Below are positions 17,800-24,432 of a stretch of 64,000 nucleotides of DNA, piece by piece. This DNA comes from Rhodobacter sp. NTK016B (lineage in GTDB: Bacteria > Pseudomonadota > Alphaproteobacteria > Rhodobacterales > Rhodobacteraceae), in assembly GCF_017303295.1 (NCBI RefSeq), contig NZ_JAFKOK010000001.1:372001-436000 (forward strand), in the 5' to 3' direction. The notes under the pieces are model-generated. The model had not been told where the DNA came from. It saw only the letters and a program-made list of their open reading frames with translations, and made no database searches. Each line of letters begins with the position of its first letter. The first letter of the stretch is position 1. Position numbers and translations under genes: made by a program.

Positions 17800-19227
17800 T
17801 CAGGCGCGATCCATGCGCGACCACAGGCGCGGCGCCATCGGGCCGATCCCGTCCTCGATCGCAGCCATCGCGCCGACGACCAGATCCTCGCGCCAGCGCC
17901 GCCCGACGATCTGCACACCGATAGGTTGCGCGCCGGTCTCCAACCCTGCCAGCCGGGCCGGAACGTTGCCCGCGGGCAAGCCAAGGAAATTCATCGAGGT
18001 CGACCAGATCGCCGACCCCAGCACCTCGGCCACGCCTTCGGGCCCCTGGGTATCGCGGCCCGGCGCAAAGAAGGGCTGCGGCAGGAAGGGGGTCAGCACC
18101 AGCGGATACTCTTCGAGCAAGAGCGACCAGCGACGCGCCAGCCCGGTGCGCGCGGCGACGGCCTGCAGGTATTCCTCGGGCTCATAGGGCGGGAAGGCCG
18201 CGAAATACTCGGCGAAGATACTCTTGATCGTATCCGAGCCCAACCGCTGAATATCGGGGCCGAGCATCGCCTCGGTCTCGGTCATCAGAGCGCGGAACGC
18301 GGTCTCGGCAAGCTGGCGCAGGCCCGGCGGGGTGATCTCTTCGACCGCGTAGCCCGCATCGATCAGCGCCTCGCGGGCATCGTCGAGCGCCGCTTCGACC
18401 TCGGGGTGGAGGGGGAAATCGAGCGTCTCCTTGGTGAAGCCCACCTTGATCTTGCCCTCGATCTGCGCGCCCTTCCACGGCAGCGGCACATGCCATGGAT
18501 CGCGCGCATCGGGACGGATCATCACCGGCATCGCCAGCGCCAGATCGCGCGCCGAGCGGGTGATCAGCCCCTGCACCGACATCGCCTGTGCAAGCATCCC
18601 GCGCTCGGCCTTCTGGCCCGGATTCCACGCGGCCACGCGGCCCAGACCCGGCTTTACCGTCACCGCACCGTTCGCCGCCGCCGGATAGCGCAGCGAGCCC
18701 GCGATATCGTTGCCATGCGCCAGCGCGCCGATCCCCGCCATGACCGAGGCCCCCGCCCCGCCCGACGAGCCGCCCGCCGACAGATGCGCGCCCCACGGGT
18801 TGTGGGTGCGCCCGAACAGCGGATTGTCAGTATCGACCCGGAAGGAGAATTCCGGCGTGTTGGTGCGGCCGATCACCACCGCGCCGGCTTCCTGCAGCGC
18901 GCGCACAAGCGGCGCGTCTTCGGCCGCGACCGCGTCTTTCAGCCCCGGCAGCCCGTTCGACGTCGCCTGCCCCGCCTGATCGACATTGATCTTGATGGTC
19001 ACCGGCACACCGTGCAGCGGCCCCTTGGGCGCGTCCGAGGCATCGAGCGCGCGCGCGCGCTTCAGCGCGGCCTCGGACAAGTCCACGACCACCGCGTTCA
19101 GCGCCGGGTTGACCGCCTGCATCCGTTCGATGGCCGCGCCCACCGCCTCTTCGGCGCCGACCTCGCCTGCGCGCGTCAGCGCCGACAGCTCGGTTGCCGT
19201 CAATTGCCAGAGAGGGGTATCGGTCAT
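17800..19227 (-). CDS. Amidase (amidase signature family)
   Basis: A 475-residue cytoplasmic hydrolase of the amidase-signature family. The Ser-cisSer-Lys triad can be placed: K79 in VPVTIKINVD, S154 in the glycine-rich SAGGSSGGAGAS, and nucleophile S178 in IAGSLRYPA. Members hydrolyse varied amides, or act as GatA; the absence of gatB/gatC nearby and overall divergence argue against GatA. The ATG at 19227 has GGAG six bases upstream. It lies 121 bases downstream of the bufferin operon on the same strand; I see no terminator between them, so read-through is possible. Confidence 0.93.
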   Translation of the reverse strand: MTDTPLWQLTATELSALTRAGEVGAEEAVGAAIERMQAVNPALNAVVVDLSEAALKRARALDASDAPKGPLHGVPVTIKINVDQAGQATSNGLPGLKDAVAAEDAPLVRALQEAGAVVIGRTNTPEFSFRVDTDNPLFGRTHNPWGAHLSAGGSSGGAGASVMAGIGALAHGNDIAGSLRYPAAANGAVTVKPGLGRVAAWNPGQKAERGMLAQAMSVQGLITRSARDLALAMPVMIRPDARDPWHVPLPWKGAQIEGKIKVGFTKETLDFPLHPEVEAALDDAREALIDAGYAVEEITPPGLRQLAETAFRALMTETEAMLGPDIQRLGSDTIKSIFAEYFAAFPPYEPEEYLQAVAARTGLARRWSLLLEEYPLVLTPFLPQPFFAPGRDTQGPEGVAEVLGSAIWSTSMNFLGLPAGNVPARLAGLETGAQPIGVQIVGRRWREDLVVGAMAAIEDGIGPMAPRLWSRMDRA

Positions 19228-19347
19228 GCGGTGCTCCATCGCGGTGAGCGCGCAGGTTAGGACCGCCGCCCCCTGCCGCGCAACCGGCAATCGGGCTTTC
19301 ATTCTGCCACAAATACTCATCCGCGACGCCCGCGAGGTAGTGCGCCG

Positions 19348-19827
19348 TCAGCGGTCGATCCGCAGCGCGCGGTCGAGCGACACGACACCACCACCCCGCG
19401 ACAGGACCAGCAACAGACAGGCCGCCCAGGTGCCGTGCAGGACCCAGGCTTCGGGGAAGACGAACAGCTGGATCACCGCCACCATCACCAGAAGCCCGGC
19501 GGCGGCAAAGCGGCTGGCCAGTCCAAGGATCAACAGCACCGACAGGGTATGCTCGCCGAGCGTCGCCGCCACCGCCGCCCAGTCCGACGGGATCAGCGGC
19601 AGGTCGTAGACGTTTTCGAACAGGAAATAGGTCTGCTCGCGGATCGAGAACCCCTCGACCTTGGTGCGCGCCGATTGCCAGAAGACGATGCCGACAGCCA
19701 GCCGTGCCGCAAGCTGGGCAAGATCCAGCGGCAGCAGACGGGCCGCGAGCGCGTTGAGCGCGCGCAGACGCGGGCGGAGACCGGTTTCGCGGCCTGTGCG
19801 GGAAGCGTTGCTTGCAGTGTCGGTCAT
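19348..19827 (-). CDS. DoxX-family membrane protein of the bufferin operon (HvfD/GigT-like)
   Basis: A 159-residue protein with four predicted transmembrane helices. The DoxX signature LAARLAVGIVFWQSARTKVEG and GLASRFAAAGLLVMVAVIQLFVFP are clear. In Haemophilus (hvf), Cupriavidus (gig) and Caulobacter operons, a DoxX gene follows the DUF692 and DUF2063 genes; its role is unclear, perhaps electron supply or membrane anchoring. The start overlaps the DUF2063 stop by four bases (ATGA). It is the last gene of the operon. Confidence 0.9.
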   Translation of the reverse strand: MTDTASNASRTGRETGLRPRLRALNALAARLLPLDLAQLAARLAVGIVFWQSARTKVEGFSIREQTYFLFENVYDLPLIPSDWAAVAATLGEHTLSVLLILGLASRFAAAGLLVMVAVIQLFVFPEAWVLHGTWAACLLLVLSRGGGVVSLDRALRIDR

Positions 19828-20558
19828 GGCCGGTCTCCGATTCGGGAAATGAGCTGATGGCGCAAAAGCAGCACCAGCAGCGGCGCAGGGTCGCGGGTTG
19901 CCGCCATGCCGAGGGGCTTGCCCTGCAGAAGCGCGTTGAGGATCGCGTGCGAGCCCGCGTCGAGCGGTTCTGTGACGATGGCGAAGTCCGGCCTGCGCGC
20001 GATCAGCGCGTGGTCGGGGCCGGACCCGGGCGGTGCGGGCGCCCGGCCCGGCTGGTTGGCCTGCCAGATCCGCAAAGCCGGATGGGCCGAGGCGAAGGCA
20101 TGGACCGAGGGCGCCAGCGTCAGCACCAGCCGCGCGGGATCGCCCGTGCTCAGCGCGGCAGTATCGGCGACCGGCGCATCGGCGGCGTGATAGGCCTGCC
20201 CGCGCAGGGCTTCGAGCCGGGCGACATCGGGCAGATAGGGCAGCCCCGCGACGGGCGGGAAGCCCGACAGGAAGGCCGGGAAATCGCCGCCCCATTCCGA
20301 CAGAACCGGCGTGACGGGCGGATGCGCGGCAGCGAAGACGCCCGCCATCGCGCTGAAGAATTCAGGCCCGACCAGCCGTTCGACCACCGGGAACCGGGCG
20401 GCCAGCGCCCGCGTCAGCCCGTGGCGGACATTGTTGCGATAGACCGCGAAGCGGCGCTCCAGCGCGTCGGCCGGGGCCAGCCCTTCGGGCGTGTCGGGCG
20501 ACCAGAGCGCGGCGTGGAAAGCGGCCTCGGTGGCGGCGTGGTCAGGCGACGGCGACAT
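19824..20558 (-). CDS. DUF2063 partner protein of the MNIO enzyme (HvfC-like)
   Basis: A 244-residue protein of the DUF2063 family, seen in the N-terminal FHAALWSPD, the [30 protein letters not shown] block and YLPDVARLE. These proteins form a complex with a DUF692 oxidase and are thought to bind the RiPP precursor and deliver it to the enzyme. The gene overlaps the DUF692 gene by 17 bases and the DoxX gene by four, so all three are translationally coupled. No signal peptide; modification occurs in the cytoplasm before export of the peptide. Confidence 0.9.
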
Positions 20559-21411
20559 GGCGCGCGCCCTCCATCACCCGGTCGGCGCGGCGCGCCTCGT
20601 CCGCGAGCACGGCAAAGGCGGGGACGTCGTTGTCCCATTCGATCAGCGTCGGCAGCGGCCCCGTGCGCGCGATCACCTCGGCATAAAGGGCCCAGACCGG
20701 GTCGGCCACGGGCCGCGAATGGCTGTCGATCAGCAGGGGGCCATCGGGCAAATCCTCGGCCTCGTGCCCGGCAAGATGGATCTCACCCACCGCCGCCAGC
20801 GGGAACTCAGCCAGATAGCCGCGCGGATCGCTGCGGTGATTGGTGGCCGAGACGAAGACGTTGTTGATATCCAGAAGCAGCCCGCAGCCGGTGCGCCGGA
20901 CGATCTCGCGCAGGAAATCGGTTTCGGACCACGTGCTGGCGGCGAAAGTGACATAGGTCGCGGGGTTCTCCAGCAGCATTGGGCGGCCCAGAGCCGACTG
21001 CACCGCGTCGATATGCGCGCAGATCCGCGCCAGCGTCTCGTCCGTGTAGGGCAAGGGCAGAAGGTCGTTGAGCCACGCCGCCCCGTGCGAGGACCACGCC
21101 AGATGTTCCGAGAAACTCTCGGGCTGATAGCGGTCGACCAGCGCCTTCACCCGCGCCAGATGCGCGCGGTCCAGAGGCCCGGCGCCGCCGATCGACAGGC
21201 CCACGCCGTGCACCGACAGCGCATGATCCGCGCGCAGCCGCGTCAGCATCGCATGCGGCGCGCCGCCGGCGCCGAGGTAATTCTCGGCATGGATTTCGTA
21301 AAAACCGACGGGCGCCGTCAGCGCATCGGCGAAATGCTCGGCCTTGAAGCCCAACCCTGCGCGCCGGGGCAAGGTGATGTCAGGCCTATGAAAATCGGGA
21401 TCGGGATGCAT
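20542..21411 (-). CDS. DUF692 multinuclear non-heme iron oxidase (HvfB/MbnB-like)
   Basis: A 289-residue TIM-barrel enzyme of the DUF692 (MNIO) family. Conserved metal-ligand blocks are present in order: [56 protein letters not shown] and IEWDNDVP. MNIOs bind two or three iron ions and convert precursor cysteines (or Asp) to oxazolone/thioamide or thiooxazole groups that bind copper. The upstream gene encodes the likely substrate, a DUF2282 peptide. GGAGG lies 7 bases before the ATG. A strong hairpin between the precursor gene and this one may set their expression ratio. Confidence 0.93.
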
Positions 21412-21431
21412 GGCAAATCCTCCGTCAGGCA

Positions 21432-21469
21432 GTCGCGGCCCCGGTCAATGCGATAACCGGGGCCGCGAC
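21432..21469 (-). promoter_or_regulatory. Hairpin between precursor and enzyme genes of the bufferin operon
   Basis: A perfect 14-bp stem GTCGCGGCCCCGGT (21432-21445) / ACCGGGGCCGCGAC (21456-21469) with a 10-base loop. No T-run follows on the minus strand, so it is not a classical terminator. It sits six bases after the precursor stop codon and could protect the precursor mRNA 3' end or partly block read-through. Confidence 0.75.
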
Positions 21470-21475
21470 GAGGGG

Positions 21476-21913
21476 TCAGCCCTCGTCCATCATCGTGTCG
21501 TCGGACATGTCGTCATGCATCATGTCGTCGCCCATCATGGCGGGCATGTAGGTGGCGACGATGGCGGGATCGAGGCTGGCGGGCAGATCGCGCGCGATAC
21601 CGGGACCGTAGCCGCCTTCTTCGAGCATTTCGGCGCTGACGCCCATCCGGGCATGGCCCATCCCGTCCTCGGGCAGCATCATCTCGGCGCAGGTGCCCGC
21701 CGGAACTAGGGTCCAGGCATTGCCCTGATAATCAAGCGTCGAGGTGCCCGCGCAGCTGGTGCCGGGACCGGCTGCGCAATCGTTCTCTCCCGCCATCGAC
21801 ACGCCGTAGCAGCGCTCTTGTTCCTGCGCCTGCGCGGCGCCCGCGGCCATGCCCAGCGCGGCGGCGATCGAAGCGGCAAGAAGGGGGGCGGCATTGTGTT
21901 TGGTCTTGGTCAT
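21476..21913 (-). CDS. Bufferin-type RiPP precursor (DUF2282, HvfA/GigP-like)
   Basis: A 145-residue precursor. Residues 1-30 are a signal peptide (Lys-rich start, hydrophobic core, AQAQ). The core has four cysteines in the DUF2282 pattern: C35 (ERCYGV), C46 (ENDCAAG), C54 (GTSCAGTS) and C75 (PAGTCAEM). In characterised bufferins these cysteines are enzymatically modified and bind copper in the periplasm. Unusually, 70 residues follow the last cysteine, ending in [16 protein letters not shown] and a further SDDTMMDEG: eight Met, seven Asp and one His in 25 residues. The ATG at 21913 follows GGGAGAG. An ECF-type promoter lies 50 bases upstream. It is the first gene of the precursor-MNIO-partner-DoxX operon. 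Confidence 0.92.
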
Positions 21914-21962
21914 CGGAACTCTCCCGTTGGAACGGCCCGCACCATGCGGTCCTGATCGCCAA

Positions 21963-21988
21963 GACGCTTGACCCACCGCAAGCGTTAC
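21963..21988 (-). promoter_or_regulatory. ECF sigma (SigF-type) promoter of the bufferin operon
   Basis: Minus strand: -35 GTAACG (21988-21983), 16-bp spacer, -10 CGTC (21966-21963). Layout and -35 match the Caulobacter SigF consensus GTAACC-N16-CGAA except for the last bases of each box. Expected transcription start near 21955, giving a leader of about 40 bases. Confidence 0.7.
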
Positions 21989-22046
21989 GCCCGCTCACGC
22001 AGCCGTGACATCGACGGAATTTTCGTCGAAATTGGCCGGGGGCGGT

Positions 22047-22072
22047 GTAACAACAGCCCCGCCGCCTGCGTA
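22047..22072 (+). promoter_or_regulatory. ECF sigma (SigF-type) promoter of the sigma/anti-sigma operon
   Basis: Plus strand: -35 GTAACA (22047-22052), 16-bp spacer, -10 CGTA (22069-22072). It is the same motif as the divergent promoter at 21963-21988, which suggests autoregulation. The -10 ends only 11 bases before the GTG start of the sigma gene, so the mRNA would be nearly leaderless from that codon. Confidence 0.65.
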
Positions 22073-22083
22073 ATGGAGCCTGA

Positions 22084-22632
22084 GTGAGACCGTCCGAGAG
22101 CCTGTCATGGGAAGCCCTGATGCACGCCGCCAATCGCGGCGATCAACAGGCCTATGCCCGGCTGCTGGGCGAGATCGCGCCCGTCGTGCGCGGCATCGTG
22201 CGGGCACGCGGCGGGGCGCTGGGGGCTGAGGGCTGCGAGGACGTGGTGCAGGAGGTTCTGCTGACGATCCATCTGAAGCGTCAGACATGGCGCGAGGATG
22301 CGCCGTTGCGTCCGTGGCTTTACGCGGTGACGCGCCACAAGGTGATCGACGCGCTGCGGGCGCGCGGCACGCGGGTCGAGATCCCGGTCGAGGACATGGC
22401 CGAGATCCTGCCCGCGCCCGAAGGCGCCGATCCGTTCGAGGCGCGCGACATGGCGCGGGTGCTCGACCAGCTCGAGCCGCGCGCGGCGCAGATCCTGCGG
22501 GCGATCGGCATCGACGGCGACAGCACCGCCGAGACGGGTGAGAAACTGGGCATGACCGAGGGGGCGGTCAGAGTGGCTTTGCACCGGGCCCTGAAATCGG
22601 TGGCCCGGCTGCGGGAAAGGATGATCGAATGA
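22084..22632 (+). CDS. sigF: ECF RNA polymerase sigma factor, SigF-like
   Basis: A 182-residue ECF sigma factor. Region 2 runs from about residue 15 to 95 (GDQQAYARLL, CEDVVQEVLLTIH, WLYAVTRHKVIDALR) and region 4 from about 125 to 180 (LGMTEGAVRVALHRALKSV). It is paired with a DUF1109 anti-sigma gene through a four-base overlap, as in Caulobacter sigF-nrsF, and is divergent from a bufferin operon like those controlled by SigF. The start is a GTG at 22084; because the promoter lies so close, an internal ATG at 22120 (preceded by GGAAG) is an alternative that would remove 12 residues. Confidence 0.92.
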   Translation: MRPSESLSWEALMHAANRGDQQAYARLLGEIAPVVRGIVRARGGALGAEGCEDVVQEVLLTIHLKRQTWREDAPLRPWLYAVTRHKVIDALRARGTRVEIPVEDMAEILPAPEGADPFEARDMARVLDQLEPRAAQILRAIGIDGDSTAETGEKLGMTEGAVRVALHRALKSVARLRERMIE

Positions 22633-23261
22633 AGACCGACGCGCTGATCGCGGCGCTTGCCGCCGACACCACGCCGCGCCCCTCGCCGGGCGCGCGGATG
22701 ATGCGCGTGCTGCCGCTGGCGGTTGCCTTGTCGCTGGCGGCGCTGTTGGCGGGTTGGCATGTTCGCCCCGATCTGGCCGCGACGCTGAGCTCGGTCGCCG
22801 TGTACAAGACGGCGGTGCCGGTGGCGCTGGCGCTGAGCGCGCTGTGGCTTGCGCGCGGCCTTGCCCGTCCGGAAGCACGGGCGCGCCGGGAATGGGCGTT
22901 GATCGGCGTGTTGATAGCGGCGCTGGCGCTGGCGCTGGTCTGGGGGCTGGCGGTGACGCCCGCGGCGCGCATTGCCGAGATCCTCGATACGCCCGATTAC
23001 ACGAATTGCCTGATCTCGGTCCCCACGCTGGCGGCGCTGCCGCTCGCTGCATCGCTCTGGGCGTTGCGCGCAGGCGCGCCGTTGCACCCGGCACGCGCAG
23101 GGGCGGCGGCAGGGCTGATCGCGGGCGGGGCCGGGGCGGCGATCTATTCGCTGCATTGCCCGCATGACCACCTGATGTATTTCTTCCCGGCTTATGGTGT
23201 GGCGATGGCGGCGGTGACGCTGGCGGGCGCCCTGATTGGCGCGCTGCTGCTGCGCTGGTGA
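22629..23261 (+). CDS. nrsF: NrsF-like anti-sigma factor (DUF1109)
   Basis: A 210-residue inner-membrane protein with six predicted helices after a short cytoplasmic N-terminus that would hold the sigma factor. It has exactly two cysteines, C127 (YTNCLIS) and C177 (SLHCPHDH), 50 residues apart. Caulobacter NrsF needs C131 and C181, also 50 apart, for release of SigF under metal stress. The match in family, cysteine spacing and neighbours is strong. Sensing is presumably of metals or oxidation at the membrane. A REP-like palindrome follows five bases after the stop. Confidence 0.92.
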   Translation: MKTDALIAALAADTTPRPSPGARMMRVLPLAVALSLAALLAGWHVRPDLAATLSSVAVYKTAVPVALALSALWLARGLARPEARARREWALIGVLIAALALALVWGLAVTPAARIAEILDTPDYTNCLISVPTLAALPLAASLWALRAGAPLHPARAGAAAGLIAGGAGAAIYSLHCPHDHLMYFFPAYGVAMAAVTLAGALIGALLLRW

Positions 23262-23266
23262 GGAGT

Positions 23267-23487
23267 GGTGCGTGCAGAGCACGCACCCTACAGCGTCGGA
23301 CAAGGGATGTCGGGCAAGCGCTGCTCCGTGGGATGGCGCTGCGACGGCGGATAGGGGCACTTTATAGGGCCAGATCCTCAAGACAGCGGTCCCGCGCGCG
23401 CGCCGGGCACAGGGCTTTGGCACGGGGCTTTGTCCTACCGCCACATAAAGCAGAGCCCGGCTGTAGGGTGCGTGCTCTGCACGCACC
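23267..23487. repeat. REP-like inverted pair of 27-bp palindromic units
   Basis: Two exact reverse-complement copies of a 27-base unit lie at 23267-23293 and 23461-23487. Each is itself a hairpin, GGTGCGTGC-AGA-GCACGCACC plus CTACAG. They enclose 167 bases with no ORF that I can support, between the convergent anti-sigma and pirin genes. Layout is that of a BIME/REP-type element and either arm could act as a bidirectional terminator. Confidence 0.85.
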
Positions 23488-23499
23488 ATGCGCCAGACC

Positions 23500-24432
23500 T
23501 CAATCCGGCAGCGGGATGTATTCCTGATCGTCCCCCGGCGGCAGGTCAAACTGGCCCTTGCCCCAGCGGCCCTGACGCCATTGTTCCTTGGCCTCCTCGA
23601 TCCGCTCTTTCGACGAACTCACGAAGTTCCACCACAGATAGCGCGGCCCGTTCAGCGTATCGCCGCCCAGCACAAGCAGCCGTGCGCCCGCCGCGCCCGC
23701 CTGCAGGGTAATCGCGTCGCCCGGACGGAACACCGCCATCTGCCCCGCGCTGATCTCCTGCCCGGCAACATGCACCGAGCCCGACAGGACGTGCAGCCCC
23801 CGATCCTCGTGCCCGTCGGGCATCGGCAGCTTGGCCTCGGCCTCGAGCCGGACATCGGCATAGAACACATCGCCAAAGGTCGATACCGGCGCCTGCGCGC
23901 CCCAGGCATGGCCCAGGATCACCCGTGCGCGCTTGCCCTCGGCATCGAGCAACGGCAGCACTTCCTTGCCGTGATGTTCGAAGGCCGGTTCCATTTCTTC
24001 CCGGTCCTCGGGCAGCGCCAGCCATGTCTGCACGCCGAACAGATCGTGGCGGCCCTGACGGCCCTGGGCATCGGTGCGCTCGGAATGGGTAATGCCGCGC
24101 CCCGCGATCATCCAGTTGACCTCGCCCGGATTGATCCGCTGATCCGTCCCGAGGCTGTCTTTATGGATGAAATGGCCGTCCAGCAGATAGGTCACCGTGC
24201 CCAGCCCGATATGCGGATGCGGGCGCACATCGATGCCCTCTCCGGTGATGAATTCGGCCGGTCCCATCTGATCGAAGAACACGAAAGGCCCCACCATGCG
24301 CCGGGCCGCCGCCGGAAGCGCGCGCCTGACCTCGAACCCGCCCAGATCGCGCGTTCGCGGGATGATCACGGTTTCAATCGCGTCGGGATCCGTGGTCAAC
24401 GGACCGGGGTCGAAGGTGGGGTTCCAGCTCAT
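23500..24432 (-). CDS. Pirin-family cupin protein
   Basis: A 310-residue protein with two cupin domains. The N-terminal metal site is visible in DVRPHPHIGLGTVTYLLDG (two His), HKDSLG and GRGITHSER (third His). Pirins bind Fe or Ni/Zn and can act as quercetinase-like dioxygenases or as regulators of central metabolism. The C-terminal cupin has PMPDGHEDRGLHVLSGSV and GARLLVLGG. The ATG at 24432 gives the standard start. It is convergent with the anti-sigma gene across the REP-like element and follows the rhomboid gene on the same strand after 98 bases. Confidence 0.92.
   Translation of the reverse strand: MSWNPTFDPGPLTTDPDAIETVIIPRTRDLGGFEVRRALPAAARRMVGPFVFFDQMGPAEFITGEGIDVRPHPHIGLGTVTYLLDGHFIHKDSLGTDQRINPGEVNWMIAGRGITHSERTDAQGRQGRHDLFGVQTWLALPEDREEMEPAFEHHGKEVLPLLDAEGKRARVILGHAWGAQAPVSTFGDVFYADVRLEAEAKLPMPDGHEDRGLHVLSGSVHVAGQEISAGQMAVFRPGDAITLQAGAAGARLLVLGGDTLNGPRYLWWNFVSSSKERIEEAKEQWRQGRWGKGQFDLPPGDDQEYIPLPD

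Follow-up and report, generated by a model that had tools for sequence, protein, structure and literature searches.

A Buf1-type bufferin operon and its divergent sigma/anti-sigma pair in Rhodobacter sp. NTK016B, with candidate control elements in related loci

Rhodobacter sp. NTK016B carries on contig NZ_JAFKOK010000001.1 six genes which, judged by family matches and layout, are a real and complete Buf1-type bufferin (captophorin) operon with its own sigma and anti-sigma genes. They lie at 19348-23261 of the stretch analysed here, which is 64,000 nucleotides long and is called the window in its full length. The open reading frames of bufA, bufB, bufC and doxX are on the minus strand, and sigF and nrsF diverge from them on the plus strand across a common gap of 170 bases (Table 1). 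The preliminary description, made from the letters alone, had placed six genes in two divergent units, had called the operon complete and bufferin-type, and had reported overlaps of 17, 4 and 4 bases. The frames are indeed found there, the products of all six genes matched their Pfam families far over the curated cut-offs in the profile search, and the overlaps are real (bufB/bufC, bufC/doxX and sigF/nrsF, respectively). There is no overlap of bufA and bufB, and the 64 bases between them contain a strong hairpin. The MNIO, DUF2282 and NrsF families have one match each in the genome (4.84 Mb, 86 contigs), all at this locus, which makes the operon a compact model for bufferin control.

We hold it very probable that this is a self-switching operon working as follows. 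Envelope stress, most likely excess copper, would be sensed by the membrane protein NrsF via its two conserved cysteines, and the ECF16 (extracytoplasmic function group 16) sigma factor thus freed would fire two facing promoters, those of sigF-nrsF and of bufABC-doxX. BufC would present BufA to BufB, an iron enzyme that would convert Cys 46 and Cys 54, the central pair, to thiooxazoles, and a disulfide would join the outer cysteines 35 and 75. The modified BufA would then be exported by Sec and chelate copper in the periplasm, and the hairpin after bufA would keep the precursor mRNA above the enzyme mRNA. In this scheme sensing, chemistry, export and copper chelation are modelled on characterised relatives, and the response to copper or gold and the cysteine modification are expected by homology.

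Table 1. Features of the buf locus in window coordinates (aa, amino acids; a dot marks a feature without strand)
Feature	Position	Strand	Evidence
doxX, DoxX family membrane protein, 159 aa	19348..19827	-	PF07681, 59.5 bits vs cut-off 23.6
bufC, DUF2063 partner (PME-type 1), 244 aa	19824..20558	-	PF09836, 91.7 bits vs cut-off 27.2
bufB, MNIO maturase (DUF692), 289 aa	20542..21411	-	PF05114, 349.4 bits vs cut-off 25
Intercistronic hairpin, 16-pair stem, 6-base loop	21432..21469	-	Folding energy z = -5.7
bufA, Buf1/DUF2282 precursor, 145 aa	21476..21913	-	PF10048, 83 bits vs cut-off 22.4; Cys 35/46/54/75
BufA tail after RDLP, residues 112-145, 8 Met of 34	21479..21580	-	Translation; composition
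R-D-L-P motif, BufA residues 108-111	21581..21592	-	R-D-[LIM]-[PA] in 86/86 precursors
Predicted sigma-F promoter of bufABC-doxX, GTAACG-N16-CGTC	21963..21988	-	Motif on bufA side, 17/17 divergent loci
Inverted repeat TCACG-N4-CGTGA, 6 bases upstream of bufA -35	21995..22008	.	Conserved across divergent loci
Predicted sigma-F promoter of sigF-nrsF, GTAACA-N16-CGTA	22047..22072	+	Motif on sigma side, 16/17 divergent loci
sigF, ECF16-type sigma, 182 aa from GTG	22084..22632	+	PF04542, 37.7 bits vs 24; PF08281, 40 bits vs 25.7
nrsF, DUF1109/NrsF anti-sigma, 210 aa, Cys 127 and 177	22629..23261	+	PF06532, 147.6 bits vs 26.8

The gene identities are demonstrated by these profile matches. In addition, BufB passes the NCBIfam model NF050167 (MNIO_BufB) with 378.9 bits against a cut-off of 310, aligns to the structure 3bww (E 8.8e-41) and also matches the TglH and MbnB chains. 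Its HG, HL, EN, LDxNN, NH, IHxAGH and DxH stretches, which we take to be metal-ligand sites, align with their counterparts in 3bww. The fold of BufC was modelled with AlphaFold from 50 sequences (predicted local distance difference test score, pLDDT, 93.7), and since its only PDB matches at E<=0.001 are TglI (8hi7, 8hci) and NGO1945 (3dee), BufC is a typical MNIO partner. Residues 1-29 of BufA look like a Sec-type signal, judged by eye only. If cleavage is assumed after residue 29, the unmodified product (residues 30-145) has a computed average mass of 12124.4 Da, from which each thiooxazole would take 4 Da, as in FonA, and a disulfide 2 Da. The four cysteines are present in all 86 precursors compared, and in all of these, which were selected by likeness to the window's BufA, the R-D-[LIM]-[PA] motif stands near the C-terminus; R108 and D109 are invariant in a 42-row alignment (A1). 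Elsewhere, an RDLP-like ending was seen by eye in 4 of 30 other alphaproteobacterial loci (L118, L125, L134 and L136) and in the same-family locus L141. The likeness to the hvf genes that had been proposed at first holds for the enzymes but not for the precursor, as HvfA belongs to the EGKCG group and not to DUF2282 (PMC13097082). The EGKCG captophorins, that is hvf/oxazolin and fontiphorin, share with the window an MNIO and a PME1 partner, with thiooxazole chemistry in their characterised cases, but their precursors carry EGKCG repeats, of which the window's DUF2282 precursor has none.

For the comparison of loci we used the copy in the window itself (L001) together with the best 80 of at least 574 confirmed precursor matches; being best matches to the window's precursor, these 81 loci, many of one clade and several from metagenome-assembled genomes (MAGs), give counts that describe close relatives. 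The sigF-nrsF pair diverges from bufA in 13 of them (window counted) and lies co-directionally downstream in 3, an arrangement too frequent for chance; the other 65 have no adjacent sigma gene. Twelve further stretches were examined, among which the precursors of L105, L107, L108, L111 and L112 are the same as those of L002, L003, L004, L063 and L041. The 86 precursors are the 81 loci plus those of genomes G005, G008, G009, G012 and G013, the 86 loci used for the hairpin are the 81 plus L104, L106, L110, L113 and L115, and the 17 divergent loci below are the window, seven genus-mates and nine others.

On the bufA side every one of the 17 divergent loci has GTAAC-N16/17-CG[T/A], 58-79 bases ahead of the start codon used, and only L041 is without the motif on the sigma side. 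In the 81-locus set the motif is present in 16/16 loci with an adjacent sigma gene against 1/65 without. The spacers between the promoter elements are dissimilar except in the closest pairs, the window and G008 having an identical sigma-side spacer and L051 and L059 nearly alike ones. The Caulobacter sigma-F box, GTAACC-N16-CGAA, has the same -35 element and spacing (PMC3511200), and the Bradyrhizobium EcfF box also matches the motif (PMC3420878). Self-regulation, as claimed in the preliminary description, is thereby supported by facing predicted promoters conserved on both sides, but a second conserved element, a palindrome adjoining the bufA promoter (see below), means that it may not be the whole of the control.

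The sigma factor passes NCBIfam NF009165 (213 bits, cut-off 198) and adjoins a DUF1109/NrsF anti-sigma factor with two cysteines, whose spacing of 50 is also that of Caulobacter NrsF (Cys 131 and 181; PMC3511200) and of OsrA (Cys 129 and 179; PMC3420878). The GTG start of sigF is just 11 bases past the -10 element, and translation may really begin at an in-frame ATG at 22120, which would give 170 aa. The same was proposed for Bradyrhizobium EcfF, which was shortened to 170 aa because its start sat too close to the -10 (PMC3420878). NrsF was searched in the genomes of 28 of the 65 loci without adjacent sigma and of 6 sigma-type loci, with genome completeness not stated: all 6 sigma-type genomes were positive, while among the 28 there were 26 without a match, one whose match was weak and fell short of the cut-off, and one with a full match (L065). 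Two observations may be added here. In the genome of L065 (G233), where NrsF is present, the buf operon has neither the double box described below nor a clear sigma-F motif, and in that of L021 (G246) the NrsF match is split into two neighbouring parts, which may reflect a broken gene or a misassembly.

The GC-rich hairpin right after the bufA stop is conserved as a structure, with sequences differing across loci. A stem of at least 10 pairs (G-U and one mismatch allowed) was found in 75/86 loci, compared with 53/860 shuffles and 64/846 random windows of the same loci, and its folding energy is below z = -2 relative to shuffles in 54/86 (11/21 sigma-type and 43/65 other loci). No Rfam family matched it at E up to 1, nor was there any Rfam match within 19200-23600. 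It may stabilise the bufA mRNA or attenuate read-through into bufB. The ratio of precursor to enzyme mRNA predicted from the hairpin is open to measurement.

Several points weigh against the self-switching copper reading or qualify it. Chromate and cadmium (PMC3511200), H2O2 (PMC3420878) or HOCl (PMC8315932) are also among the signals to which characterised ECF16 systems respond. Four proteins stay under the NCBIfam equivalog cut-offs of the relatives they match: BufA with 16.8 of 60 bits (the BufA2/Buf2 model NF050166; four cysteines versus 6 or 12), BufC with 52 of 142 (HvfC), DoxX with 40.7 of 80, and NrsF, a Pfam family member, with 100.6 of 300 (the Caulobacter-type NF042994). Moreover, the structure model of BufA (pLDDT 54.9) is too poor to back the predicted disulfide. 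By rarity alone the promoter pattern is also weak: the window has 3 hits where 0.84 would be expected, and 6/100 shuffles contain at least 3. The promoter case depends on conservation among related loci. Across the genome the pattern, with CGTA or CGTC ends only, gave 30 hits versus 160 in the reversed control; in view of this lack of enrichment no sigma-F regulon is readable from the motif, and the search for further sigma-F targets was rejected.

As to the palindrome, TCAC-N6-G[TC]GA occurs at nearly fixed spacing in 12/13 divergent sigma-type loci versus about 1% per locus in shuffles. We regard it as close to an even chance that control is dual, a second DNA-binding regulator acting at TCAC-N6-GTGA just upstream of the bufA -35 besides sigma-F; a related double box stands ahead of bufA in the sigma-less relatives. 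Among the three co-directional loci only one has the palindrome at the same spacing, and its absence from that place in L021 and L070 speaks against such a regulator; in the 30 other alphaproteobacterial loci the sigma motif was seen in 12 and the palindrome in 6, the two standing together at that place only in L134. Between the two promoters there is also an inverted TCGACG/CGTCGA repeat (about 22008-22033), and CGACGAAAA recurs in several genus-mates.

Upstream of bufA in most of the 65 loci without adjacent sigma (all among L006-L081), about 200-270 bases ahead of the first bufA Cys codon, a double box T[CGA]ACG-N4-CGTGATGCACG-N5-GTGAATGG takes the place of the sigma-F promoter. The short palindrome pattern matches 16 of the 65, mostly as the left half of this double box. 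With a 37-base matrix 57/65 of these loci scored over all 1379 background windows, against 0/16 sigma-type loci. This counts for dual control, with the reserve that the figure is in-sample, refinement and scoring of the matrix having used one and the same set of loci. Four of the remaining eight (L072, L074, L076 and L078) show the double box by eye with a one-base shift. In 36 genomes 14 of the 15 exact hits are at buf operons, but with one mismatch there were 101 hits versus 50 in the reversed control, so a wider regulon is not visible, which is a further point against dual control. Another is that a candidate regulator was not found: among the neighbour genes of the 65 loci, inspected by eye in clusters without a Pfam scan, no common regulator was seen. 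The commonest clusters were buf genes, DoxX and antisense frames, together with two that were labelled by eye from their N-termini, one as the end of a threonyl-tRNA synthetase and one as an ArsC-like protein. The sigma switch and the double-box switch appear to be mutually exclusive among relatives, and this makes the switching of sigma-F-less bufferin operons a direct DNA-binding question.

A quick BufB tree (111 rows, LG+G4, Shimodaira-Hasegawa-like approximate likelihood ratio support only), with many open forks and long outgroup branches, places 17/21 sigma-type loci in one supported branch, together with one sigma-less locus, L079. Another supported branch (97) holds 64 rows labelled sigma-less (including L141, labelled by family and box), and the sigma-type loci L031 and L057 are nested in it; these two have kept one box, which again favours dual control. 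L039 and L073 are placed elsewhere. From this scatter of sigma-type loci, more than one exchange of the switch is probable. The BufB of L079 groups with those of sigma-type Paracoccus loci, a GTAAC...CG-like motif stands ahead of its bufA, and NrsF was not found in its genome.

BufA has a further peculiarity in its tail, whose final 20 residues contain 7 Met, 7 Asp and 1 His. The precursor ends within three residues past the RDLP motif in 60/86 cases, and among the remaining 26 there are 25 different tails, 10-34 residues long, in which Met makes up 59/436 residues compared with 0.34% in the core, with 7 of the 25 tails having none. The two longest tails (34 residues) are those of the window and of its nearest relative G008, which has 7 Met and keeps 7 of the window's 8; the long tail is complete in these two genomes and shorter in L002/G015. 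Since several close relatives end at YMPxMM, the window's last 18 residues were either added or lost elsewhere. Between the window and G008 residues 122-145 show 7 non-synonymous and 0 synonymous base differences, versus 1 and 7 in residues 33-79, so strong constraint on the tail is not shown, and it is only the composition that suggests a function. A broader proposal, which we make tentatively and consider unlikely as a whole, is that Rhodobacterales bufferin cassettes are exchangeable under two mutually exclusive switches, sigma-F/NrsF or a regulator reading the double CACG/GTGA box, and that the window's metallophore has two parts, a thiooxazole copper site and a Met/Asp/His tail acting as a second Cu(I) site or an oxidant sink.

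Somewhat less probable still is that the switch responds mainly to oxidants such as peroxide and hypochlorite and not to copper, with the Met-rich tail of BufA as a sacrificial methionine sink. The Met content of the tails given above is in keeping with it, EcfF/OsrA, a pair that controls Met-sulfoxide reductases, reacts to H2O2 (PMC3420878), and BcrS controls a Met-rich protein and Msr (methionine sulfoxide reductase) genes under HOCl (PMC8315932). These systems resemble the window in their ECF16 sigma factor, their DUF1109 anti-sigma factor with two conserved cysteines and their promoter class, but the targets described there for EcfF/OsrA and BcrS/AbcS are Met-sulfoxide repair and a Met-rich protein instead of a bufferin. 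Against the oxidant proposal, the Caulobacter regulon was copper-induced in both media tested (PMC8224329), its sigma-F genes were not induced by agents generating reactive oxygen (PMC3511200), and the tails without Met also tell against a sink. A link to msrPQ as in Caulobacter was rejected, for the msrPQ-like genes at L177, labelled by eye beyond their PF00174 match, have no sigma-F motif in 3.5 kb; the other PF00174 match, L176, has one on the opposite strand only. That the peptide serves another thiophilic metal (gold, silver or cadmium) or sulfur chemistry, with copper secondary, is improbable even beside the oxidant proposal: the gig operons of Cupriavidus respond to gold, silver and copper (quoted in PMC8224329) and chromate and cadmium induce the Caulobacter sigma-F genes (PMC3511200), but the window's core is the four-Cys core of Buf1, a family in which Cu(I) and Cu(II) are bound by the Caulobacter member that has been studied (PMC12452194).

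Among the closest known systems is the Caulobacter sigF-nrsF/CC3254-CC3257 (Buf1) system, to which the preliminary description had rightly likened the operon: the same six families are found there at neighbouring locus numbers, with GTAAC-type promoters ahead of both units and two anti-sigma cysteines. In favour of the self-switching copper reading, the same families are SigF-controlled (PMC3511200) and copper-induced (PMC8224329) there. The Caulobacter regulon differs in including a second DUF2282/DUF692/DUF2063 operon and msrPQ, where the window's genome has one DUF2282 gene and no motif at msrPQ, and its precursor has 93 aa versus 145 aa with RDLP and a Met-rich tail in the window. The gene set and layout are already published (PMC12452194; PMC3511200); Buf1 clusters with sigma and NrsF genes, with the same gene content and bufABC order, are described in PMC12452194, so the layout is not new. 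On the other hand, the main text of PMC12452194 has no mention of a promoter, hairpin, terminator, Rhodobacter or Met-rich feature, that of PMC13097082 none of Met-rich or methionine, and a literature search, whose term also matches 'buffering', gave no recognisable paper on a Met-rich bufferin. The palindrome, the exclusive double-box switch, the hairpin and the RDLP motif with its Met-rich tail are thus likely new as judged from these main texts, and these features may merit follow-up.

The operon is patchily distributed, with a BufA match in 9/17 genus-mates and 20/40 relatives searched, and DUF2282 is present in 65/190 genomes of the class. The best four precursor matches among named genomes are two Pararhodobacter strains, one MAG and a record titled Novosphingobium sp. 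MW5. In the nearest relatives L002, L004, L005 and L104 the operon is flanked by one shared pair of genes, for an amidase and a pirin (L105 and L108 are duplicates of two loci in this list); in other relatives only one of the two neighbours was seen, partly because contigs end. An empty insertion site was not seen in the pirin regions of seven genus-mates (five genomes without bufA, two with bufA elsewhere or on another contig); in the five without bufA no amidase, rhomboid or PutA match stands beside pirin, so this region may be a different place. Finally, a 24-base repeat, TAGGGTGCGTGCTCTGCACGCACC, has inverted copies at 23267-23290 and 23464-23487, which bracket a short stretch after nrsF, and is present in 6 exact copies genome-wide.

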